DNA of 64,000 nucleotides from Bauldia litoralis. GTDB lineage: Bacteria; Pseudomonadota; Alphaproteobacteria; Rhizobiales; Kaistiaceae. The translations under genes and the position numbers were made by a program. Location: the NCBI GenBank assembly GCA_945882315.1, contig CAMCWB010000012.1, forward strand, positions 1 through 64,000. The letters are read 5' to 3'. Numbering within the stretch: position 1 is the first letter of the stretch; each line of letters starts with the position of its first letter. Shown one piece after another: positions 19,986-32,389 of this stretch. Under the pieces are notes generated by a model, which saw only the letters and a program-made list of their open reading frames with translations, did not search any database and was not told the DNA's origin.

Positions 19986-21071
19986 ATGACTGCGGATAAT
20001 GATCCTGGACGCGATTCGGTGTCCTATAGCGATGCCGGCGTCGATATCGATGCCGGAAATGCCCTCGTCGAGGCGATCAAGCCGCTCGTCAAATCGACGC
20101 GCCGTCCCGGCGCCGATGCCGAGATCGGCGGCTTCGGCGGCCTCTTCGATCTTGCCAAGGTCGGCTACAGGGACCCCGTCCTCGTCGCCGCCACCGACGG
20201 CGTCGGCACCAAGCTGAAGATCGCCATCGAGACCGGCATCCTCGACACGATCGGCATCGACCTCGTCGCGATGAGCGTCAACGACCTCGTCGTCCAGGGT
20301 GCGGAGCCGCTGTTCTTTCTCGACTATTTCGCGACCGGCAAGCTCGACCCGGCGGCCGGGGCGCGCATCGTCGGCGGCGTCGCCGAAGGCTGCCGCCAGT
20401 CCGGCGCGGCGCTGATCGGCGGCGAGACGGCGGAGATGCCCGGCATGTATGCCGGCAAGGATTTCGACCTCGCCGGCTTTGCGGTCGGCGCCGTCGAGCG
20501 CGACGCGATCCTGCCGCGCCCCGACATCGGCCCCGGCGACCGGCTTCTCGGCCTCGCCTCCTCCGGCGTGCATTCCAACGGCTATTCGCTGGTCCGCAAG
20601 CTCGTCGAGCGCTCCGGCCTCGGCTATGACGCACCAGCTCCATTCGAGCCATCGTCCCCCCTCGGCAAGGCGCTGCTGACGCCGACCCGCATCTATGTGA
20701 AACCGCTCCTCAAGGCGTTGCGCGCGAGCAAAGGCATCAAGGCCCTCGCCCACATCACCGGTGGCGGCCTCACGGAAAACCTGCCGCGCGTCCTGCCCGC
20801 CGCCACGGCCGCACGCATCGACCTGTCGCGCATCGCCGCGCCGCCGGTCTTCGGCTGGCTCGCCCAGACCGGCAATGTCGAGGAGCGCGAGATGCTGCGC
20901 ACCTTCAACTGCGGCATCGGCATGGTGATCGTCACCGCCGCAGCGGAAACCGACGCGATCGCGAAGCTGCTCCGGGCCGAGGGCGAGACCGTCATCGATC
21001 TCGGCGTCATCGAGCAACGTCGCGATGCGGCGGTCGTCTATGACGGCAAGCTCGGCCTGAAAGCGAATTGA
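19986..21071 (+). CDS. purM: Phosphoribosylformylglycinamidine cyclo-ligase
   Basis: This 361-residue AIR synthetase catalyses the ATP-dependent ring closure of FGAM in purine synthesis. Signature elements are [68 protein letters not shown] and [16 protein letters not shown]. The length is family-typical. It overlaps purN by one base (TGATG), so the two are translationally coupled. The pair is a conserved operon, and I see no purine riboswitch in the 133-base leader. Confidence 0.97.
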
Positions 21072-21727
21072 TGCCGCGCCGCCGCGTCGCGATCCTCATT
21101 TCCGGCCGCGGCACCAACATGACCGCCCTCATCGAGGCGGCAAAGGATCCTGCCTTTCCCGCCGAGATCGCGCTGGTCCTCTCGAACCGAGCCGACGCAG
21201 CCGGCTTGTTTCACGCCAGGGAAAACGGCAACGAGACGGCGGTCGTGAACCACAGGGAGCACGCCTCGCGTGAATCCTTCGACCTCGCGCTCGACGCAAG
21301 GCTGAAGGCGACCGGCATCGACCTCGTCTGCCTCGCCGGCTTCATGCGGCTCCTGACCAATGATTTCGTCGAAGCCTGGCGCGACCGGATGATCAACATC
21401 CATCCCTCGCTGCTGCCGCTCTTCCCCGGTCTCGACACCCATGCAAAGGCGCTCGGCGCCGGCATGAAGCTGCATGGCTGCACGGTGCATTTCGTCCGCA
21501 GCGCCGTCGACAGCGGGCCGATCATCGCGCAGGCGGTCGTGCCGGTGCTGGCCGGCGATACGCCCGACACGCTCGCCGCCCGCGTGCTCACTGCCGAGCA
21601 TCGTATCTACCCCTTGGCGCTCGGCCTCGTCGCCGGCGGCAAGGTGCACGTCGTCGATGAAAAGGCGGTCATCGACGCGCCCGGCCCGGAATCCGAAGGC
21701 TTTCTGGTCGCTCCAGTCTATCGCTAG
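21071..21727 (+). CDS. purN: Phosphoribosylglycinamide formyltransferase
   Basis: This 218-residue enzyme transfers a formyl group from 10-formyl-THF to GAR. It contains the substrate-binding ISGRGTNMTALIEA, the LAGFMRLLTNDFVE segment, the catalytic block INIHPSLLPLFPGLDTHAKAL (Asn, His and, downstream, Asp), and GCTVHFVRSAVDSGPIIAQA. I chose the ATG at 21071, which overlaps the purM stop, over an in-frame TTG three bases earlier. The 207-base gap that follows separates it from the transglutaminase cluster. A small GGCAG/CTGCC stem at 21730-21742 may end the transcript. Confidence 0.96.
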   Translation: MPRRRVAILISGRGTNMTALIEAAKDPAFPAEIALVLSNRADAAGLFHARENGNETAVVNHREHASRESFDLALDARLKATGIDLVCLAGFMRLLTNDFVEAWRDRMINIHPSLLPLFPGLDTHAKALGAGMKLHGCTVHFVRSAVDSGPIIAQAVVPVLAGDTPDTLAARVLTAEHRIYPLALGLVAGGKVHVVDEKAVIDAPGPESEGFLVAPVYR

Positions 21728-21934
21728 GGCAGTTCCTGCCTTGAAAAGCGTCGCTCAGGTCGGGACAAAACGTTCTCTTCGCAGGCGCAACATAAACCTC
21801 TAGTCTTAGGTATCGGGCCGGATCGGTCGAAGACGGCCATACGGGCTGATGCCCGGCCTGGTTGTAGTCCGTCGCGCCGCCCGACCCGGCCACGACGAAA
21901 GAGGGTGCCTCAGAGAATGCGAGCCGGATAGACG

Positions 21935-24900
21935 ATGTCGATCGAAGCCGCCCTCTATCACCTCACGCATTATCGCTACGACCGGCCGGTCACGCTCGGT
22001 CCCCAGATCATCCGCCTGCGGCCGGCGCCGCATTCGCGGACGAAGGTCCTCAGCCACTCGATCAAGGTCAGCCCTGCCGGCCATTTCGTGAACCTGCAGC
22101 AGGACCCCTATGGCAATTTCCTTGCCCGCTATGTATTTCCCGAGCCGACGCGCGAGTTCAAGATCGAGGTCGATCTCGTCGCCGACATGACGGTCTACAA
22201 TCCGTTCGACTTCTTCGTCGAGCCGGATGCCGAGCGCTGGCCCTTCGCTTATCCGGAAGAGATTCGGGACGATCTCGCGATCTATCTGAAGACCGAACCG
22301 GTCGGCGAGGCGATGGAACGTTTCCTCGCCACCATCGACCGCGGCGGGCAGAAGACCGTGGACCTGGTCGTCGGGCTGAATGCCAGGCTGCAAAGCGAGA
22401 TCGCCTATCTGATCCGGCCCGAGCCCGGCGTGCAGAACCCGGACCAGACGCTGACGCTTGCCCGCGGCTCCTGCCGCGATAGCGGCTGGCTGCTCGTTCA
22501 GGTGCTGCGCCACCTCGGCCTCGCCGCGCGCTTTGTCTCGGGCTACCTCATCCAGTTGAAGCCGGATCTCGTCTCCCTCGACGGCCCGCCCGGCACCGAT
22601 CACGACTTCACCGATCTCCATGCCTGGTGCGAGGTCTATATCCCAGGCGCCGGCTGGATCGGCCTCGACCCGACCTCCGGCCTGCTCACCGGCGAAAGCC
22701 ACATCCCGCTCGCCGCGACACCGCATTATCGCAACGCCGCGCCGATCTCAGGCATGGCGAGCTTCGCCGATGTCGATTTCGCCTTCGCCATGAAGGTGAC
22801 GCGCATCGCCGAGCATCCGCGCATATCAAAGCCCTTCTCCGACGAGTCCTGGGGCGCGCTCGATACCCTGGGCGAGCAGGTCGACCGCGTGCTCGTTGCG
22901 GAGGACGTCCGCCTCACCATGGGCGGCGAGCCGACCTTCGTCTCGATCGACGACTATCAGGCGGAGGAGTGAAACACGGCTGCCGTCGGCCCGACCAAGC
23001 GGGCCAAGGCCGACGCCCTGATCCGCTGGCTCGGCGAGCGCTTCGCCCCCGGCGGCCTCATTCATCACGGTCAGGGCAAATGGTATCCGGGCGAGACCCT
23101 GCCGCGCTGGGCCTTCTCGCTCTATTGGCGCAAGGACGGCAAGCCGATCTGGTCCGACACGGCGCTGATCGCCCGGGATACCGCCGATACCGGCGCGAAG
23201 AGCGGCGACGCCGAGCGACTGCTCGCGGCCGTCGCCGCGACCCTCGAACTTCCCGCCGGTGCGGTCGTCCCGGCCTTTGAAGATCCGGCCGAATGGATCC
23301 TCAAGGAAGGCAAGCTGCCGGAGAATGTCGACCCGACCAATTCGAAGCTCGAGGATCCGGAGGAGCGCAGCCGTATCGCCTGCGTCTTCGAGCGCGGCCT
23401 CACGAAGGCGACCGGCTATGTGCTGCCGATCCAGCGCTGGCAGGCCGAGGCACGCCCGCGCTGGCGCACCGAGACGTGGCAGACGCGGCGCGGCAAGCTG
23501 TTTCTTGTTTCCGGCGACTCGGCCCTCGGCTACCGCCTGCCGCTCGGCACGCTGCCTTATGTCCCGCCGGCCGCCTACCCCTATGTCATCCCGCTCGACC
23601 CGACCGTGCCGCGCGGCCTTCTGTCGGATCCGAGCCAGCCGACCTTCGACAATACGGCGTCGCCGCCGGTCATGCCGCCGGCCGCCGAGCGCGAACTCGC
23701 CGCCGCCTCCTTCAGCGCCGCGACCGGCCGGCAGGATGTCGTCGAGCAGGAGGTTCCGGTCATTGGCGGCGCGGTGCGCACGGCCCTCACCGTGGAGGTG
23801 CGCGAAGGCCGGCTCTGCGTCTTCATGCCCCCGGTCGAGAAGCTCGAGGATTATCTGGACCTCGTCGGCGCCGTCGAGGCCGCCGCCCGGAAGCTCAGCC
23901 TGCCGATCCAGGTCGAGGGCTATCCGCCGCCCAGCGATCCGCGCATCAACGTCATCCGCGCCACGCCCGATCCGGGCGTCATCGAGGTCAACATCCACCC
24001 CGCCGCCAACTGGCGCGACTGCGTGGAGACGACGACGGCCGTCTATGACGAGGCGCGCCAGTGCCGCCTAGGCGCCGACAAGTTCATGATCGATGGCCGC
24101 CACGCCGGCACCGGCGGCGGCAACCATGTCGTGGTCGGTGGCGAGACGCCCGCCGACAGCCCCTTCCTGCGCCGGCCGGACCTCCTGAAGAGCCTGGTGC
24201 TCTACTGGCAACGCCACCCGGCGCTCTCCTATCTCTTCTCCGGCCTCTTCATCGGGCCGACGAGCCAGGCGCCGCGCATCGACGAGGCGCGCCACGACTC
24301 GCTCTATGAGCTTGAAATCGCGATGGCACAGGTGCCGCTGTCCGGTGCCAGCGCTGCCGCGCCGCTGCCCTGGCTGGTCGACCGGCTGTTCCGCAACTTG
24401 CTTGTCGACGTCACCGGCAACACGCACCGCGCCGAGATCTGCGTCGACAAGCTCTACGCGCCCGAGACCGCTTCGGGCCGGCTCGGTCTCGTCGAGTTCC
24501 GCGGCTTCGAGATGCCGCCGAGCGCCCGCATGAGCCTCGCCCAGCAATTGCTGATCCGGGCGATCATCGCCCGCCTGTGGCAGGCGCCGCTCTCCGGCGG
24601 CTTCGTGCGCTGGGGCACAGCGCTGCACGACCGTTTCATGCTGCCCTATTTCGTCTGGCAGGATTTCCTCGACGTGCTCGCCGACCTCGCCGCGGCCGGC
24701 TTCACGTTTCGGCCGGAATGGTTCGAGGCGCAGAAGGAATTCCGTTTCCCCTTCTGCGGCGCGGTCACCTATTCGGACGTGAAGATCGAGCTGCGCCTCG
24801 CCCTCGAGCCCTGGCATGTGATGGGCGAGGAAGGCGCGATCGGCGGCACGGTGCGCTATGTCGATTCCTCGGTCGAACGGCTGCAGGTCATGACCGAAGG

Positions 24901-25294
24901 CCTGGTGCCGGAACGGCATCTGATCCTCTGCAACGGCCGGCCCATGCCGATGACGCCCGCCGGCACCGCCGGCACATGCGTCGCCGGCGTGCGCTACAAG
25001 GCCTGGCAGCCGCGCTCAGGTTTGCATCCGATGGTGCCGGTCGACGCGCCGCTGACCTTCGAGCTCTACGATACCTGGACCGGCCGCGCGATCGGCGGCT
25101 GCACCTATCACGTCGCCCATCCGGGCGGCCGCAATTACGAGACCTTTCCGGTCAACGCCAATGAGGCGGAGGCGCGCCGCCTCGCCCGCTTCGAGCCGAA
25201 CGGCCATATCGGCGGCGACCGCTCCGTGCCGCGGGAGGAGCCCAGCCGGGACTTCCCGCTGACGCTCGACCTCCGCCGTCCCGGGGGCATCTGA
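21935..25294 (+). pseudogene. Transglutaminase-like + DUF2126 protein, interrupted by in-frame TGA
   Basis: Read straight through, this frame encodes about 1,119 residues, the normal size for transglutaminase/DUF2126 proteins. Residues 1-345 hold an N-terminal transglutaminase region and a papain-like triad (GSC180RD, LH229AW, LD245PTSG). A TGA then follows at 22970-22972. The same frame continues [10 protein letters not shown]...[19 protein letters not shown], which in the family is preceded by EWNTAA, so TGA stands where TGG (Trp) is expected. The large DUF2126 part runs to 25294 with no other defect. It could be a recent pseudogene, a consensus error, or readthrough. It is first in a cluster with the ATP-grasp/alpha-E gene and a second transglutaminase. 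Confidence 0.85.
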
Positions 25295-25297
25295 CGC

Positions 25298-27691
25298 ATG
25301 GCACAGCGGGCCACCGCCGGGAAGCCGAGACCCAGTCTCGCCGCCGACTACCGTCCACGGCCCGGCACCACCGACGAGATGGTGGGACCAGACGGCCGTG
25401 TCCGGCCGCTCTGGCAGCCGCTGATCGACCGCCTCGACGGACTCACCCGGAGCGGCGTCGAAACCCGCTTCGCCCGTGCCGACCAGTATCTGCGCGAGGC
25501 CGGCGTCTATTATCGCGCCTATGGCGAGGGCGGTTCCGACGCGCGTGAATGGCCGCTCGCCCATGTGCCGCTGCTTATCGAGGAGGGCGAATGGCAGGCA
25601 CTGGCGGCCGGCCTCGTCCAGCGCGCCGAACTGCTCGAGCGCGTCTTCTCCGACATCTATGGCGACAACCGCCTCGTCGCCGCCGGCCTGCTGCCGCCGC
25701 AGATCATCGCCAACAGCCCCGAATATCTGCGCGCCGTGACCGGGCTGAAGCTCCGCGAGTCCCCCCTCCATTTCATCGCCTTCGAACTCGGTCGCGGTCC
25801 CGACGGGCGCTGGTGGGTGCTGGCCGACCGCACCCAGGCTCCGTCCGGCGCCGGCTTCGCGGTCGAGAACCGCGTCGCCACGCTGCGGGCGCTCTCCGAC
25901 CTCCTCGTCGACATGAACGTGCATCGCCTCGCCGGCTTCTTCCGCTGCCTGCGCGACGCGCTGTTCGGCCTTGCCGGCGGGTCCGGCGGCGTCGCCATAT
26001 TGACGCCCGGCCAGCATAACGAGACCTATTTCGAGCACGCCTACATCGCCCGCTATCTCGGCCTGATGCTGCTCGAAGGCAGCGATCTCATGGTCACCAA
26101 CGGCAAGGTGATGGTGCGCACGGTCGAGGGGCCGCGCGAGATCGGCGTGCTCTGGCGCCGGCTCGATTCAACTTTCATGGACCCGCTCGAGCTGAAGCCG
26201 GAGTCGCGCATCGGTACGCCGGGCTTCGTCGAGGCGATCCGCCGCGGCGGTGCCACGCTGGTCAACGCCATCGGCTCCGGCGTCCTGGAGACGCGTGCCC
26301 TCCTCGCCTTCCTGCCGGCGATCTGCCGGCATCTCGACGGCAACGACCTCATCCTGCCCCATATCGCCACCTGGTGGTGCGGAGCGGAAAAGGAGCTCGA
26401 ACACGTCATCGCCAATCTCGACCGGATGATGATCGGTCCGGCGCAATCCACCGTGCCGCCCTTCGAGGATAGCGAGGGGACGAAGCTCACCGCCTGGATG
26501 AACGCGAACGAGAAGGCCGGGCTCGTCCAGCGCCTGCGCCAATCGGGAGGACAGTTCGCGGCGCAGGAGTCGGTGACGCTCTCCACCATGCCGGTCTACG
26601 CCAAGGGCAGGCTGGAGCCGCGGCCGGTGACGCTTCGCGCCTTCGCCATGCGCACCGCCCAGGACTGGACGGTGATGCCCGGCGGCTTCGCCCGCGTCGG
26701 CGCCAGCGCCGACACGATGGCCATCGCCATGCAGAAAGGCGGCCGCGCCGCCGACGTCTGGATCGTTGGCGCCAGGCCGGTCGAGCAGGTCTCCCTGCTT
26801 CCCTCCGCGGACGACACCGTCGACGCGACGGCTGCCACCGCGCTGCCGAGCCGCGCTGCCGACAATCTGTTCTGGCTCGGCCGTTATATCGAGCGGGCCG
26901 ACAGCCTCGCCCGCGTGCTGCGCGCCTATAACAGCCGCATCGCCGAGGCGCCCGACCCGCGCAATCCCGTGATACCTGCCATCCGCGCCGTGCTGCGCGA
27001 GATCGGTATCGACGCGCGCGAACCGATCCCGGCCCGCCTGATCTCCAGCATCGACGACGCGGCCGACAGCGCCGGCCGCATCCGCGACCGCTTCTCGCCG
27101 GACGGCTGGCTGGCCCTTACCGACCTGTCCAAGACCGTGCACAGCTTTGCTGAAAAGGTCGAGCCGGGCGGAGACGCGACGCGCGCCATGACGGTGCTCT
27201 TGCGCAAGCTCGCCGGCTTCGCCGGGCTCGTCCACGAGAACATGTATCATGCCGTCGGCTGGCGCTTCCTGGAGATTGGCCGGAGATTGGAGCGCGCGCT
27301 GGAGATGTCGCGCCTCACCTCCCATCTTGCCGGCCCTGGCGCGCCGCTGGAACTGCTCGACCTTCTCGTCGAGATCGGCGACAGCGTCATGACCCATCGG
27401 CGCCTGCACAAGGTCAATTCCGGCCGCCTCACCGTCATCGACCTTCTCGCGCTCGATGAGGCCAATCCGCGCGCCATCGTCTTCCAGCTCTCCGAGATAA
27501 AGGCGCATGTCGCGACCCTGCCGGTGCGCGAAGGCAGTGGCCACGCCAATCCGGTGAGGCGCGAGGCACTGCGGCTTCACACCGAGCTCGCCGTCTGCGA
27601 GCCGGCCAATGCAACTCCGGAATTCCTCAAGGGCCTGGCGACCTCGATCACCGGCCTTTCGGACCTCATCGACATCGCCTATTTCCGCTGA
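25298..27691 (+). CDS. Circularly permuted ATP-grasp type 2 / alpha-E fusion protein
   Basis: This 797-residue protein joins a circularly permuted ATP-grasp domain (about residues 1-480, DUF404/DUF407 type) to an alpha-E helical domain (about 500-797, DUF403 type). Landmarks are VYYRAYGEG and LLPPQIIANSPEYLRAVTGL, the AILTPGQHNETYFEHAYIARYLG stretch, and ATP-binding HIATWWCG in the first part. The second part shows AADNLFWLGRYIERAD, the alpha-E hallmark. ATP-grasp enzymes form amide bonds through acyl-phosphates, and neighbourhood studies propose that this set ligates peptides or modifies protein ends. It starts 3 bases after the DUF2126 gene and ends 3 bases before the second transglutaminase. 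Confidence 0.88.
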   Translation: MAQRATAGKPRPSLAADYRPRPGTTDEMVGPDGRVRPLWQPLIDRLDGLTRSGVETRFARADQYLREAGVYYRAYGEGGSDAREWPLAHVPLLIEEGEWQALAAGLVQRAELLERVFSDIYGDNRLVAAGLLPPQIIANSPEYLRAVTGLKLRESPLHFIAFELGRGPDGRWWVLADRTQAPSGAGFAVENRVATLRALSDLLVDMNVHRLAGFFRCLRDALFGLAGGSGGVAILTPGQHNETYFEHAYIARYLGLMLLEGSDLMVTNGKVMVRTVEGPREIGVLWRRLDSTFMDPLELKPESRIGTPGFVEAIRRGGATLVNAIGSGVLETRALLAFLPAICRHLDGNDLILPHIATWWCGAEKELEHVIANLDRMMIGPAQSTVPPFEDSEGTKLTAWMNANEKAGLVQRLRQSGGQFAAQESVTLSTMPVYAKGRLEPRPVTLRAFAMRTAQDWTVMPGGFARVGASADTMAIAMQKGGRAADVWIVGARPVEQVSLLPSADDTVDATAATALPSRAADNLFWLGRYIERADSLARVLRAYNSRIAEAPDPRNPVIPAIRAVLREIGIDAREPIPARLISSIDDAADSAGRIRDRFSPDGWLALTDLSKTVHSFAEKVEPGGDATRAMTVLLRKLAGFAGLVHENMYHAVGWRFLEIGRRLERALEMSRLTSHLAGPGAPLELLDLLVEIGDSVMTHRRLHKVNSGRLTVIDLLALDEANPRAIVFQLSEIKAHVATLPVREGSGHANPVRREALRLHTELAVCEPANATPEFLKGLATSITGLSDLIDIAYFR

Positions 27692-27694
27692 ACC

Positions 27695-28570
27695 ATGAAA
27701 TACGATGTCCGCCTCCAGCTTGAATATGCCTACCGGCCCGCCGCCGCCGCAGGCCGCCATCTCGTCCACGTCGCGCCGACGACCATCGCCGACAGCCAGC
27801 GCGTCGTCGCCTCCTCCATCACATTCGATCCGGTCCCGGTCGAGCGCGTCGACGGGCACGATTTCTTCGGCAACGCCATCGTCTCGGTCGCCTTCGACGA
27901 GCCGCACGCCATGCTGAAGGTCGGCATGAGCGCCCGCGTACAGGTCGAGGCGCCGGGCGCCACATTCGACGTGTCGCCCGACATCACGCGGCTCCGGCGC
28001 GAGATCGCCGGCGTACTGTCGCTGGCGCCGGACTCGCCGCATCATTTCTCCCCGGCAAGCCCGCGCATCGGACTCGACGAAGACATCACCGCCTATGCCC
28101 GCGAGGCGGTGGCCGGCGCCGCCACGGTCCGCGAGATGGTGCGCGACTTCGGCCAGCGCATCCATGAGGATTTCGTCTTTGACGCGAAATCGACCGAAGT
28201 GGATACGGCGCCGAAGGAAGCCTTCGAGCTCAGGCGCGGCGTCTGCCAGGACTTCACACAGGTCATGATCGCAGGACTACGCGGCCTCGGCATCCCGGCC
28301 GGCTATGTCTCGGGCTTTCTTCGCACCACGCCGCCGCCCGGCAAGGAACGGCTGGCCGGCGCCGACGCCATGCATGCCTGGGTGCAGGCCTGGTGCGGCA
28401 ACCAGACCGGCTGGGTCAGCTACGATCCGACCAACGCCGTCTTCTCCGGCGAAGATCACATCGTCGTCGCCAAGGGCCGCGACTATCAGGACGTCACGCC
28501 GATCTTTGGCGTGCTGCGCACCTCCGGCCGGCAGCGCACCGCCCAGTCGGTCGACGTGATCCCGGTCTGA
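27695..28570 (+). CDS. Transglutaminase-like protein with N-terminal beta-region domain
   Basis: This 291-residue cytosolic protein (no signal peptide) has the bacterial transglutaminase N-terminal region (about 1-150) followed by a transglutaminase core. The triad is intact: C184 in RRGVCQDFTQV, H227 in ADAMHAWVQAW and D244 in SYDPTNA. Such proteins are thought to act as peptidases or amide transferases. It starts 3 bases after the ATP-grasp/alpha-E gene and completes the cluster. The proteasome-like Anbu peptidase gene that often accompanies this set is not adjacent here. Confidence 0.88.
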   Translation: MKYDVRLQLEYAYRPAAAAGRHLVHVAPTTIADSQRVVASSITFDPVPVERVDGHDFFGNAIVSVAFDEPHAMLKVGMSARVQVEAPGATFDVSPDITRLRREIAGVLSLAPDSPHHFSPASPRIGLDEDITAYAREAVAGAATVREMVRDFGQRIHEDFVFDAKSTEVDTAPKEAFELRRGVCQDFTQVMIAGLRGLGIPAGYVSGFLRTTPPPGKERLAGADAMHAWVQAWCGNQTGWVSYDPTNAVFSGEDHIVVAKGRDYQDVTPIFGVLRTSGRQRTAQSVDVIPV

Positions 28571-28603
28571 CCGAAGGGCCGCATGACTTCGACAACACAT
28601 ACT

Positions 28604-28690
28604 CCGCTCTTCCCGCTGCAAGCAGGAATCCAGGGTTTCGCGGCACGCCTGTGTTTGTCGCCCCTGGGTCCCCGCTCGGTGGCGGGGACG
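28604..28690. repeat. Palindromic intergenic repeat, copy 1 (degenerate)
   Basis: Two short stems occur, one around cccgctgcaagcaggaa and one around tccccgctcggtggcgggga, joined by a spacer that includes 'aatccagg' and 'cccctgggtcc'. The same arrangement, with better-preserved stems, recurs at 63165-63258. It lies between the convergent transglutaminase and molybdopterin oxidoreductase genes. Confidence 0.75.
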
Positions 28691-28729
28691 CGCGGAAGTT
28701 GGGGCAGCGTCAACGCTCCGGCTCGCCCG

Positions 28730-30838
28730 CTACGCCGCTTTGATCCACACCCGGTTGTCATGGAAGGCGGCCCCGCCATAGGGCGCCACCGGATCGGCGC
28801 CGGTCAGCGTGTTGATGCCGCGGCCGTCGGGATAGGCGGCGTTCGGCCAGATGCCCTCGGCGATGACGACACCACGCCGCAGCCCGTCGAAATGCCGGGC
28901 ATGAAGGGTCACGACGCCGCGGTCATTGCCCATCCGGACAAGCGTCCCGTCGGCAATGCCGTGGTCGCCGGCATCCTCGGGATGGATCATCACCTCCGGC
29001 CGGCCGCCCTCTTTCGCAGTGCCCGACGGCGTCTCGTTGAAGGACGAGTTGAGGAAGGAGCGCGCCGGCGAGGTCGCCAGCCGGAAGGGATGCTCGCCAT
29101 TGGCTGCCTCGCTGGTCGGCCAGTAATCCGGCAGCGACGGCAGCGACGTCCACGGCCCCATCGTACCGTTATTCGGCGCCTGCACCGCCGGCCATTCCGG
29201 CTTGAAGCGGAACTTGCCGTCCGGATATCCAAAGCCGTCCAGGTAATGAGCGCGTGCGAACTCCGGCTGGCAGTCGATCCAGCGCTTCTCACGAAGCGCC
29301 TCGAAGGTGCCCCAGCCGGAATGGCGCAGCATCCAGTCGATATGCTCGCGCTCGCTCATCGCGAATCCGGGATGGTCGAAGCCGAGCCGCTTTGCCAGGC
29401 CCGCGAAGACCTGATGGTTGGTCCGGCACTCCTGCGGCGGCTCGATCAGCTTCGGCCCGAACAGAATGTATTGGTGGCCGCCGCCCTTGTAGACGTCGTC
29501 ATGCTCCATGAACATCGTCGCCGGCAGCAGGATGTCGGCCATCGCCGCGGTGTCGGTCATGATCTGCTCATGGACGCAGACGAAGAGGTCGTCGCGCGCG
29601 AAGCCGCGCCGCACCTTCTCCTGCTCCGGCGCCACCGACATCGGATTGGTGTTCTGGATCAGCATCGCCGTCACCGGCGGCCCGCCTTGCAAAGTGTCGT
29701 CCTCGCCGCAGAGGATCGCGCCGATGCGCGACTGGTCGAGCTGGCGCACCGACGGGTCGCGGATGTCGAGCCCCTCGATCATCGTCTTGTTCAGATGATA
29801 GATCGCGCCATTGTTATGGAAGGCGCCGCCGCCCTCATATTGCCAGGCGCCGGTGATCGCCGCGATCGACGCCGCCGCATGCATCGAGACCGCGCCGTTC
29901 CGCGAGCGCGTGAAGCCGTAGCCGAGACGGAAATAGGTCCGCTTGCGCTCGCCGATCAGTTTGGCGAAAGCCTCGATATCCTCAACCGGCAACCCGGTGA
30001 TCGCCGAGGCCCATTCCGGCGTCTTCGAGCGGAGATGCGCTTCGAGCTCGCGCGGCACGTCCGTATATTTTTCGAGATAGTCGCGGTCGGCATAGCCGTC
30101 GCGGAAAAGGATATGCATCGCCGCGCAAGCGAGCGCCGCATCGGTGCCCGGCCGCAGGCACAGTCCAAGGTCGGCCTGCCGGAGCGTCTCGGTGCGGTAG
30201 ATGTCGATCGCGACGATCTTGGCGCCGCGTTCCTTCCGCGCCTTGACCGCATGGGTCATCACATTGATCTGCGTCGAGACGACATTCGTCCCCCATATCA
30301 CGACGCAATCCGAGACCGCCATCTCGCGCGGATCGGGACCGGCGAGCCGCCCGGTGCCGGCGATATAGCCGGTCCAGGCCGGGTTGGTGCAGATCGTGTC
30401 GAACTGCTCGGAGTAGCGCCCGGCATGGCGAAGGCGATGGACGCCGTCGCGCTGCACGAGTCCCATCGTGCCGGCATAGAAATACGGCCAGACCGTCTCG
30501 CTGCCGTAGCGCGCCGCGGCGCTCTGGAATTTCTCGGCAACGATGTCGATCGCATCGTCCCAGTCGAGCCGCTGCCAGGCAGCCGGGTCACGCCAGTCGC
30601 GCGCCCCTTTCTCGCCGACGCGCCGCAGGGGATGGACGAGCCGGTCCGGGTTGTGGATGCGCTCGGCATACCGGGCGACCTTCGCGCAGATCACCCCGGC
30701 CGTGTAATCGTGATCCTTCGCCCCATGCACGCGCCCGATCGTACGCTCGTCCAGCACCTCGATTTCGAGAGCGCAGGTCGACGGGCAGTCATGCGGACAG
30801 GCCGAGTAATGCAGCTTCGACGACAGCGGTCGGTTCAT
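28730..30838 (-). CDS. Molybdopterin oxidoreductase (DMSO reductase / formate dehydrogenase-like family)
   Basis: This 702-residue protein binds bis-MGD and an N-terminal 4Fe-4S cluster through C14-x3-C18-x3-C22-x28-C51. Further family landmarks are the VWPYFYAGTMGLVQRDG region, WTGYIAGTGRLAGPDPREM and VIWGTNVVSTQ. The C-terminal molybdopterin dinucleotide-binding fold shows HPEDAGDHGIADGTLVRMGNDRGV. There is no Tat signal, so it is likely cytoplasmic. It stands alone, with no electron-transfer subunits next to it, so the substrate (formate, an N- or S-oxide or another) cannot be assigned. MoaDE for its cofactor are encoded at 41 kb. Confidence 0.88.
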   Translation of the reverse strand: MNRPLSSKLHYSACPHDCPSTCALEIEVLDERTIGRVHGAKDHDYTAGVICAKVARYAERIHNPDRLVHPLRRVGEKGARDWRDPAAWQRLDWDDAIDIVAEKFQSAAARYGSETVWPYFYAGTMGLVQRDGVHRLRHAGRYSEQFDTICTNPAWTGYIAGTGRLAGPDPREMAVSDCVVIWGTNVVSTQINVMTHAVKARKERGAKIVAIDIYRTETLRQADLGLCLRPGTDAALACAAMHILFRDGYADRDYLEKYTDVPRELEAHLRSKTPEWASAITGLPVEDIEAFAKLIGERKRTYFRLGYGFTRSRNGAVSMHAAASIAAITGAWQYEGGGAFHNNGAIYHLNKTMIEGLDIRDPSVRQLDQSRIGAILCGEDDTLQGGPPVTAMLIQNTNPMSVAPEQEKVRRGFARDDLFVCVHEQIMTDTAAMADILLPATMFMEHDDVYKGGGHQYILFGPKLIEPPQECRTNHQVFAGLAKRLGFDHPGFAMSEREHIDWMLRHSGWGTFEALREKRWIDCQPEFARAHYLDGFGYPDGKFRFKPEWPAVQAPNNGTMGPWTSLPSLPDYWPTSEAANGEHPFRLATSPARSFLNSSFNETPSGTAKEGGRPEVMIHPEDAGDHGIADGTLVRMGNDRGVVTLHARHFDGLRRGVVIAEGIWPNAAYPDGRGINTLTGADPVAPYGGAAFHDNRVWIKAA

Positions 30839-30885
30839 GGCGGAAGGGTCGGCCCGGAGACGAAGGGTGTCAATCAGGGTTTCAT

Positions 30886-30914
30886 TTGTTTTCGGACCGT
30901 AAGAGACCTATTTT
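30886..30914 (+). promoter_or_regulatory. Sigma-70-like promoter for hicBA
   Basis: A TTGTTT box (30886-30891) and a TATTTT box (30909-30914) are separated by exactly 17 bases, 22 bases before the hicB ATG. The region is visibly more A+T-rich than its surroundings. An autoregulated operator would be expected to overlap it, but I see no clear palindrome. Confidence 0.6.
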
Positions 30915-30936
30915 CAGCCGATCGGAGAGCATCCCT

Positions 30937-31140
30937 ATGAAAATCAAAGTTGTTATTCACGAGGCGGAGGAAGGCGGATTCTGGGCTGAAGTTCCCGCAA
31001 TCCCCGGCTGTGCTACCCAGGGCGAAACGATCGATGAGCTCCTGGCAAATCTCCAAGAAGCCATCGAGGGCTGCCTGTCTGTCGAAATTGCTGAGCCAAA
31101 GCCGGGCGGGACAGACAGGATTCTGGAAATCGCCGTATGA
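30937..31140 (+). CDS. hicB: HicB-like antitoxin
   Basis: This 67-residue protein has the partial RNase H-like HicB fold. The sequence MKIKVVIHEAEEGGFWAEV, then PAIPGCATQGETIDELLANL and a short C-terminal strand, is the canonical pattern. It neutralises HicA by binding over its active site. No C-terminal helix-turn-helix or ribbon-helix-helix DNA-binding domain is present, so it is the short form. The ATG at 30937 starts the conserved strand. Its stop overlaps the hicA start (ATGA). Gene order is antitoxin first. Confidence 0.9.
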   Translation: MKIKVVIHEAEEGGFWAEVPAIPGCATQGETIDELLANLQEAIEGCLSVEIAEPKPGGTDRILEIAV

Positions 31141-31346
31141 GGTCGATTGCCGGCCGCGAGTTCGTCCGCATGGTTGAGCGGCGCGGTTGGCAACTGCTCC
31201 GCATCAACGGATCACATCACATATATGGAAAACCCGGAAGCATCGTCCGGCTTTCGATACCGGTTCATGGTAGTCAGCCGTTAAAGGCTGGATTGTTGCG
31301 GCACCTCTCAAAGCTCGCGGATATTCCCGAAGACGAATTGCGATAG
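31137..31346 (+). CDS. hicA: HicA-like mRNA interferase toxin
   Basis: This 69-residue double-stranded-RNA-binding-like fold protein cleaves mRNA in a ribosome-independent way. It has the family pattern GREFVRMVERRGWQLLRINGSHHIYGKPG, with the catalytic His in GSHHIY, then VRLSIPVHG and a C-terminal LKAGLLRHLSKLADIPEDEL helix. It is coupled to hicB by a 4-base overlap and forms a type II toxin-antitoxin pair. It looks intact. The lower G+C of the pair suggests horizontal acquisition. Confidence 0.9.
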   Translation: MRSIAGREFVRMVERRGWQLLRINGSHHIYGKPGSIVRLSIPVHGSQPLKAGLLRHLSKLADIPEDELR

Positions 31347-31369
31347 CCGCCAAGCGGTTCGTCGCGGGC

Positions 31370-32389
31370 TCACCCCACCCGCGGCATCACCTCATGCGCC
31401 AGCAGCTCGGTCGCATCCGCCACCTTGGCAAACGGAATCCCGCCGAGATCCATCTGGCCGAGATAGCGATCGTGCCGGAACAAGCCCTTCGCCTTGCCGA
31501 TCTTATCGATGATCTCCTGCGGGCTGCCGACATAGAGCGGGCCGTCCGGCCCGGCGCGCTTGTCGAACTCCTCGCGGCTGACCTCCATCGCATATTTGCC
31601 CTTCACCGCATGCTCGCGGAAATAGGCGGCGTAGTGGGGGTAGAAGGTGTCGCGGGCCTTTTGTGAATCCTTCTCGACATAGAGATGCCCGGCGATGGCA
31701 ACTTTCAGCGCCGCCGCATCATGCCCGACCTCCTTGCCCGCCTGCCGGTAGGCCTCGATCTGCGGCGCGAACTTCGCCGGTGGCTGCGTGATGTTGGCGA
31801 GCGTCAGCGGCAGGCCGAGCTTGCCCGCTCTCACCGCGCTTTCCGGAGTGCCGCCGACGCCGATCCAGACCGGCAGCCTGCCCTTCGCCGGCCGCGGCGA
31901 GATTTCCGCATCTTCCAGCGGCGTCCGGTATTTGCCGCTCCAGGTGACGCGTTCCGACGCATCGAGCTTCATCAGGAGGTCGAGCTTCTCGGCAAAGACC
32001 GCGTCATAGTCGGCGAGGTCGACGCCGAAAAGCGCGAAGGATTCGATGAAGGCGCCGCGCCCGACGGTGATCTCGGCCCGCCCGCCCGAAACCAGGTCGA
32101 GGGTCGCGAAATCCTGGTAGACGCGCACCGGGTCGAGCGTCGGCAGGATGGTCACCGTGCTGGTCAGCCGGATGCTGCGCGTCGCCGCGCCGATCGCCGC
32201 CAGGACCACGGCCGGCGAGGCCGCCGCCATGTCGAGCCGGTGATGCTCACCGACGCCGAACACAGATAGCCCGACATCGTCGGCAAGCCGCGCCGCGCCG
32301 AGCACCTCGCCCATGCGCTTGGCGAAGGACGGCGCGGCCCCGGTCGCGTCGCGCGTCAGGTCGGCGAAGGTATAAAGACCGATTTCCAT
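31370..32389 (-). CDS. LLM-class flavin-dependent oxidoreductase
   Basis: This 339-residue bacterial luciferase-like monooxygenase has a TIM barrel and uses FMN or F420. Recognisable parts are MEIGLYTFADLTRD, DVGLSVFGVGEHHRLDMAAASPAVVLAAIGAATRSIRLTS (split here across strands), DLVSGGRAEITVGRGAF and LPVWIGVGGTPESAVRAGKLGLP, then the C-terminal VGSPQEIIDKI. It is close to the alkanal monooxygenase-like LLM group. It is divergent from rlmJ with a 67-base spacer. The substrate is unknown. Confidence 0.88.
   Translation of the reverse strand: MEIGLYTFADLTRDATGAAPSFAKRMGEVLGAARLADDVGLSVFGVGEHHRLDMAAASPAVVLAAIGAATRSIRLTSTVTILPTLDPVRVYQDFATLDLVSGGRAEITVGRGAFIESFALFGVDLADYDAVFAEKLDLLMKLDASERVTWSGKYRTPLEDAEISPRPAKGRLPVWIGVGGTPESAVRAGKLGLPLTLANITQPPAKFAPQIEAYRQAGKEVGHDAAALKVAIAGHLYVEKDSQKARDTFYPHYAAYFREHAVKGKYAMEVSREEFDKRAGPDGPLYVGSPQEIIDKIGKAKGLFRHDRYLGQMDLGGIPFAKVADATELLAHEVMPRVG

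Follow-up and report, generated by a model that had tools for sequence, protein, structure and literature searches.

The subject of this work is a three-gene locus at positions 21935-28570 of the window, that is, of the whole 64,000-nucleotide stretch analysed here, taken from contig CAMCWB010000012.1 of Bauldia litoralis. The genes lie on the plus strand, separated by gaps of 3 bases (CGC and ACC), and encode a transglutaminase followed by a DUF2126 domain (gene 1), a circularly permuted ATP-grasp fused to an Alpha-E domain (gene 2) and a second transglutaminase (gene 3). The locus is of a known kind, which a first-pass annotation made from the sequence alone had spotted correctly, with its coordinates, strand, gene order and gaps, but had wrongly taken as complete. 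In fact, genes 2 and 3 are intact, whereas gene 1 is interrupted by a TGA at codon 346. The best overall explanation, which we hold to be probable, is that of a degraded copy of a widespread amide ligase/transamidase set tied to nitrogen stress, its DUF2126 ligase having been lost to that stop.

Gene 1 (21935-25294) does not form one open frame, and the listing of open reading frames (ORFs) gives it as 21935-22972 (345 amino acids) and, separately, 23420-25294. Two Pfam DUF2126 pieces meet at the stop, covering profile positions 3-70 before it and 72-826 after it, and the column of codon 346 holds Trp in 98 of the 98 other full-length rows. These comprise 80 named loci and 18 of 20 fetched from the same family or order, a length filter having removed L135 (gene 1 split) and L136 (contig end). 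The genome-wide profile search returned a sole DUF2126 match, which carries the one internal TGA. Among 81 genomes including Bauldia litoralis (the relatives sample), 34 have DUF2126 and Bauldia litoralis alone shows an internal stop in it (1/34). Sampling of the phylum gave DUF2126 in 120 of 398 genomes, two of them with an internal stop, namely Bauldia litoralis (TGA) and G129, where the domain, on G129:C41, is fragmented and carries a TAG. The domain is also split or fragmented without a stop in L135 (G047), at G460:C1:389621-392279 and on G339:C1, while in G015 the pieces lie on two contigs; those in G047, G460, G339 and G129 are possibly independent losses of the same domain.

The sequence downstream of the stop has changed in a way particular to this lineage. 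Changes private to Bauldia litoralis were compared with those private to its nearest relative (G006/L119, gene-1 identity 76%) at positions where the other rows are at least 90% conserved, and numbered 19 versus 5 downstream of the stop and 3 versus 10 upstream of it, with 7 versus 5 in the gene 2 domains and 2 versus 1 in gene 3. The upstream/downstream contrast gave Fisher p values of 0.0063, 0.0010, 0.0065, 0.0015 and 0.0086 at conservation cut-offs of 60, 70, 80, 90 and 95%; among 79 control pairs of other genomes (90% cut-off), one reached 0.05 (p 0.033, the lowest) and none 0.005. Branch nonsynonymous divergence (dN) was 0.061 in Bauldia litoralis against 0.079 in the relative upstream and 0.090 against 0.080 downstream, the synonymous divergence (dS) between the two being 0.73-0.75. 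Moreover, a leave-one-out count found changes at 11 of 288 invariant sites in the window copy, the highest of 81 with the stop itself counted, a figure softened by the fact that the residue of the window recurs in one same-family row at 4 of the 11 sites. On sequence grounds, gene 1 is relaxed in this lineage downstream of the stop, and not upstream of it. The stop thus looks real rather than an error, since the extra amino-acid changes fall downstream of the TGA and none upstream. Within the downstream part, the short loop at residues 842-847 (window 24458-24475) is SPDGPT in almost every relative, but SPDLAS in the nearest one and APETAS in Bauldia litoralis; some of this loop change is hence older than the split of the two.

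A sequencing or assembly error, with the gene of the organism itself intact, would involve a single substitution, and the genome is a draft of 162 contigs with 2.36% contamination. Nevertheless, an acceleration limited to the part after the stop would not be expected from one wrong base, internal stops are uncommon in this assembly (1 of 89 ABC_tran matches), and this copy also lacks the sigma-54-like site found in 10 of 16 same-family loci, so that we consider such an error unlikely. The sole case among the 89, at G000:C93:7607-8032, matches an ABC transporter ATPase and contains a TAA.

A different view is that the TGA is leaky, read-through yielding some full-length protein, so that the set works at a low level and the DUF2126 part is only partly relaxed. 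TGA is generally the leakiest stop codon, no second stop occurs across the following 773 codons, and E684, H731, E854 and R856, which by analogy we presume to be motif residues like those of glutamine synthetase (GS), are on the list of invariant positions that includes the window copy. However, all three genes terminate with TGA, which argues for an ordinary stop here, and the downstream part is accelerated in this lineage; leakiness as the whole explanation appears improbable. Still less credible is a functional split into a separate transglutaminase and a re-initiated DUF2126 ligase. Although the downstream frame stays open, the stop interrupts DUF2126 at profile position 71 of 826, within the GS-aligned stretch (297-940 in a relative), the earliest in-frame ATG, GTG or TTG is the GTG at 23420, 149 codons after the stop, and the downstream part is relaxed instead of conserved. 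Recoding of TGA as Trp was rejected because all three genes end in TGA, and selenocysteine at codon 346 because the relatives have Trp. Returning to a lost DUF2126 ligase, the absence of any further stop is best matched by a loss of fairly recent date or by leakiness. For one of its two ligases, the Bauldia litoralis copy probably yields no whole protein, and the locus has lost, or is losing, the GS-like ligase while the rest is kept.

The remainder of the locus is that of a well-conserved unit (Table 1). Pfam calls are Bact_transglu_N, Transglut_core and DUF2126 for gene 1, CP_ATPgrasp_2 and Alpha-E for gene 2, in line with the fusion recognised in the first-pass annotation, and Bact_transglu_N and Transglut_core for gene 3. 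Both transglutaminase triads, which had been described as intact, are invariant, that of gene 1 (C180/H229/D245) in 81/81 and that of gene 3 (C184/H227/D244) in 74/74 aligned rows, the window included. Furthermore, the ER pairs E532-R533 and E665-R666 are preserved in gene 2, a conserved ER motif being, according to Pfam, the mark of Alpha-E. The operon layout holds in relatives: the three full-length genes occur in the same order within 500 bp in 72 of the 80 named loci, and the same arrangement is found in 18/18 same-family or same-order loci having a full-length gene 1. As regards the other named loci, L077 and L093 have a transglutaminase-DUF2126 gene, but the ATP-grasp-Alpha-E gene and the other transglutaminase gene are absent from the flank examined; in L106, L075, L098, L113 and L096 the stretch or contig ends before the full set, and L110 is ordered correctly but failed the filter. 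The conserved unit is the three genes, outside which no cluster of ORFs of at least 60 amino acids occurs in more than 26 of the 98 loci. The set is patchy within the family of the window, where DUF2126 occurs in 19 of 28 genomes. The closest known system is the corresponding set of Rhizobiales (for example Mesorhizobium L035), with the same domains, order and strand and identities of 74%, 61% and 58%, from which the window differs in its broken gene 1, making it a degraded copy and not a working member. Active-site loss was not seen across the close relatives compared, which are intact; the loss is in Bauldia litoralis.

Table 1. Features of the three-gene locus and its upstream region in the window
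Feature	Positions	Strand	Description
Gene 1, 5' part	21935..22972	+	345-aa frame; Bact_transglu_N residues 8-83, Transglut_core 132-246, triad C180/H229/D245, first 68 residues of DUF2126
Gene 1 remainder, same frame	22973..25294	+	Most of DUF2126 (profile 72-826); no further in-frame stop
Premature stop TGA, codon 346 of gene 1	22970..22972	+	DUF2126 profile position 71
Gene 2, intact, 797 aa	25298..27691	+	Circularly permuted ATP-grasp, residues 91-467 (about 25568-26698), fused to Alpha-E, residues 516-796 (26843-27685)
Gene 3, intact, 291 aa	27695..28570	+	Transglutaminase-like cysteine enzyme, triad C184/H227/D244
Upstream region of gene 1	21685..21934	+	No sigma-54 -24/-12-like site (best match 4 mismatches)

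The likely chemistry was approached through structure models of gene 2 and of the intact gene 1 of L035, compared by Foldseek and VIA. The model of gene 2 (predicted local distance difference test, pLDDT, 84) matches 3n6x (Foldseek E 9e-29; VIA Z 40.8 over 441 residues at 3.4 A), and its VIA matches include glutathione synthetases (Z about 24; human Z 24), fungal Cp1B (Z 22.3), YgiC/YjfC (Z about 22) and glutathionylspermidine synthetase (Z 19.3-20.7). The E. coli glutathionylspermidine synthetase/amidase (GspS) and YgiC/YjfC share the gene-2 ATP-grasp fold (Z about 19-22) at 10-12% identity; GspS pairs its ligase with a papain-like amidase, YgiC/YjfC is reportedly a peptide-spermidine ligase, and neither is known to carry Alpha-E or DUF2126. 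Cp1B is described as a demonstrated amide-forming ATP-grasp of E-64 biosynthesis (PMC12568646). As modelled, the circularly permuted fold clearly supports an amide-ligation role for gene 2. For Alpha-E, modelled within gene 2, no fold relative is claimed, the best whole-domain match (NasR, Z 9.9, 233 residues, 5.8 A) being in the range of helical coincidence.

Residues about 297-940 of the L035 gene 1 match glutamine synthetases by VIA (best Z 13.2, 247 residues, 4.1 A) and, likewise, plant glutamate-cysteine ligase (GCL; Z 12.3). Altogether 49 of 50 VIA rows were GS or GCL, the remaining one being transglutaminase-like and lying on residues 1-296, which is also the part where Foldseek gave its only significant match (3isr, E 1e-10). 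The GS-like fold predicted for this relative, at VIA Z 12-13 with Foldseek alone not significant, moderately supports an amide-ligation role, and the TGA position falls within the GS-like stretch; unlike GS and GCL, DUF2126 is fused to a transglutaminase and, in Bauldia litoralis, interrupted. The proposal of a probable peptide-ligation system therefore stands as amide ligation at the level of the folds but fails here as a complete machine, DUF2126 being interrupted and relaxed, and a peptide substrate is unproven. No publication giving a substrate for the set was found in literature searches, where DUF2126 as a search term returned nothing.

A second set of related genes is encoded elsewhere in the genome. 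The first-pass annotation had noted that a gene for the proteasome-like Anbu was not adjacent, and had suggested searching the genome for it and for further copies of the set. Anbu is in fact absent at the DUF2126 locus, and the search found an uninterrupted Anbu set on contig C9, with its own ATP-grasp (476 amino acids), Alpha-E (314), transglutaminase (273), a RidA-like gene and Anbu (250). At this locus (L034 5638-12032, G000:C9), the order is M24 peptidase, RadC, ATP-grasp, Alpha-E, transglutaminase, RidA-like and Anbu, followed by a short-chain dehydrogenase/reductase (SDR) gene and a transposase near the contig end. Compared with the Anbu operon (ATP-grasp, Alpha-E, transglutaminase, Anbu; expressed under nitrogen limitation in Pseudomonas putida), the window locus has a homologous ATP-grasp, Alpha-E and transglutaminase, but lacks Anbu, has the ATP-grasp fused to Alpha-E, adds DUF2126 and carries changes at three lysines of the stand-alone enzyme.

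The two sets go together across genomes. Stand-alone and fused Alpha-E were sorted by score and frame length, the stand-alone type having the higher score and mostly a short frame, and 20 stand-alone loci were fetched and read, 17 of which had all four Anbu-set genes. DUF2126 and a long-frame Alpha-E (798-981 amino acids, fused type) occurred in the same 34 genomes of the relatives sample, and the stand-alone type was present in 34/34 of them versus 26/47 others (Fisher p 1e-6, phylogeny ignored; the G027 match was partial). In the phylum sample, Alpha-E occurred in 120/120 DUF2126 genomes, with two or more in 111/120 versus 12/278 genomes without DUF2126, leaving nine DUF2126 genomes with one only. 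Conservation of the ATP-grasp, which it had been suggested to check, turned out to be mixed. Comparison of 23 stand-alone with 94 fused sequences showed that, of 92 strongly conserved polar or aromatic stand-alone positions, 37 are kept and 55 changed in the fused ATP-grasp; D177, E190, N191 and R192 (candidate ATP or metal residues) are among those kept, whereas K322, K369 and K469 (numbering of the organism's own stand-alone copy; at least 95% conserved in stand-alone enzymes) became R in 92/94, G or A in 86/94 and A in 90/94. These lysines may hold the nucleotide in the stand-alone enzyme. As for activity, the ATP-grasp of the Yersinia bercovieri Anbu operon is reported to liberate phosphate from ATP (PMC6376114).

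The 34/34 co-occurrence, the Alpha-E counts in the phylum sample and the changed lysines are the reason to consider the DUF2126 set as an add-on working only with the Anbu set, in which the fused ATP-grasp would partner or regulate the stand-alone enzyme, DUF2126 would be a second ligase, and genomes like this one would be losing the add-on starting with DUF2126; from the sequences compared, we give this reading little weight. Somewhat better placed, though still doubtful, is the view that intact sets produce a protein or peptide tag instead of a small molecule, as a ubiquitin-like system in which Anbu removes the tag or degrades the tagged protein. Tagging has been proposed for the Anbu operon (PMC6376114, citing Iyer 2009), and the constant company of a stand-alone-type Alpha-E in the relatives sample points the same way. 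Nevertheless, no substrate peptide gene was seen beside the three genes among ORFs of at least 60 amino acids, the clusters present in more than 26 of the 98 loci (60 widest clusters inspected) being all centred inside the three genes, and among the solved structures nearest to gene 2 are enzymes of glutathione, spermidine-conjugate and small-amide metabolism.

The preferred reading, an amide ligase/transamidase set used in nitrogen stress, is connected with published expression data. A four-gene cluster of Burkholderia cenocepacia with these domains (I35_5080-83), listed as a common NtrC/sigma-54 target, showed log2 changes of -6.0 to -9.4 when ntrC was mutated and nitrogen was limiting (PMC5491218). 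It comprises an ATP-grasp (DUF404/407), an Alpha-E (DUF403), a transglutaminase-like and a large transglutaminase-like gene, NtrC/sigma-54 dependent, the ATP-grasp and Alpha-E being separate genes, unlike window gene 2 (PMC5491218); the large protein presumably carries DUF2126. Nitrogen limitation raised P. putida PP_2686-2688 11- to 15-fold (PMC7801951), and nitrate as compared with ammonium gave log2 increases of 4.4 for PP_2685 and 4.0 for PP_2688 (PMC8050072).

Sigma-54-like sites were sought in 250 bases upstream of gene 1 plus 30 into it, in 99 sequences. The counts that follow overstate independence, most of the sites belonging to genomes that are related to one another. The pattern TGGCAC-N5-TTGC, which we take to be that of sigma-54, was found with at most 1 mismatch in 9/99, versus 0.8 in base shuffles, 8 of the 9 coming from the family of the window at -68 to -106. 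A longer pattern, at a score of at least 10 of 13, was present in 23/98 gene-1 upstreams versus about 6.6 expected, and in 10/16 same-family loci, the nearest relative included, from which the window differs in having no such site. Upstream of the stand-alone ATP-grasp of the Anbu set, the same threshold was reached in 9/21 versus about 1 (same family 7/8), and Bauldia litoralis, whose genome encodes RpoN, has 9 of 13 at -52 before its own stand-alone copy. Across the whole window the sigma-54 pattern is at chance (55 matches, 53 expected), as are the results of sigma-70 promoter and terminator scans. The set is probably used under nitrogen shortage to build or rebuild amide bonds.

A mechanism may be outlined on this basis. 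In intact relatives, DUF2126, with its predicted GS/GCL-like fold, and the circularly permuted ATP-grasp would each spend ATP on activating a carboxylate, to be coupled to an amine. The papain-like transglutaminase domains, through their cysteine, would transfer or cleave amides of this type, with Alpha-E as a putative helical partner. The DUF2126 set would operate beside the Anbu set, both being probably turned on under nitrogen shortage, in some lineages via NtrC and sigma-54. In Bauldia litoralis, the TGA would eliminate the DUF2126 ligase and leave at most one ligase and two transglutaminases running, because no relaxation is seen in the truncated transglutaminase or in genes 2 and 3. What the data show directly are the TGA, the Pfam domains, both intact triads, the joint occurrence of the two sets in the sampled genomes and the relaxation after the stop; the reactions, the nitrogen link in this family and the continued use of the remaining parts are inferred.

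Several observations weigh against this explanation. The frame after the TGA is continuous over its 773 codons, in which 2.7% of point changes would give a stop, and a second stop or an indel would be expected had the domain long been free of selection. The upstream/downstream contrast is lost at cut-offs of 98% and 100% (Fisher p 0.49 and 1.0), with few changes there. The L035 gene-1 model has a pLDDT of 67.4, and its Foldseek GS rows start at E 0.11 with unrelated proteins interspersed. The Anbu study reported neither peptidase activity of Anbu nor a specific complex among the operon proteins (PMC6376114). As to nitrogen, the P. putida set was reported as still induced in an rpoN mutant (PP_2686 12.6-fold in the wild type, 14.2-fold in rpoN), and Anbu itself (PP_2685) as barely altered in the wild type (1.12-fold; PMC7801951). 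NtrC-like sites were not clearly enriched (6/19 rows, the window and L117-L134, at up to 3 mismatches; shuffled rate 0.20), and the main text of a Caulobacter NtrC paper has no mention of ATP-grasp, proteasome or alpha-E. To these must be added the shared ancestry of the sigma-54-like sites.

With one ligase domain apparently knocked out by nature and the remainder kept, the Bauldia litoralis copy offers, by comparison with intact relatives, a ready test of what DUF2126 contributes. Moreover, the sigma-54-like sites and the tight association with the Anbu set point to nitrogen limitation as the condition of interest and to the two loci for joint study. Taken alone, the interruption is unremarkable, but testable leads come from the association with the Anbu set and from the divergence of the fused ATP-grasp. 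For annotation purposes, gene 1 should be flagged as interrupted.

Regarding other candidates and the surroundings of the locus, anti-phage defence was rejected, as 0 PADLOC families were matched at E <= 0.01 by gene 2, gene 3 or an intact gene-1 relative. Rfam gave no match at gathering score within 21000-31400, and NCBIfam gave no match. Representatives of eight flanking clusters were an acyl-CoA dehydrogenase, LysR, TadE/VWA, topoisomerase IB, a 2OG oxygenase and three without family. In the window, the upstream neighbours on the same strand match AIR synthase and formyl transferase (purM-like and purN-like), and the downstream neighbour, on the opposite strand, matches a molybdopterin oxidoreductase.

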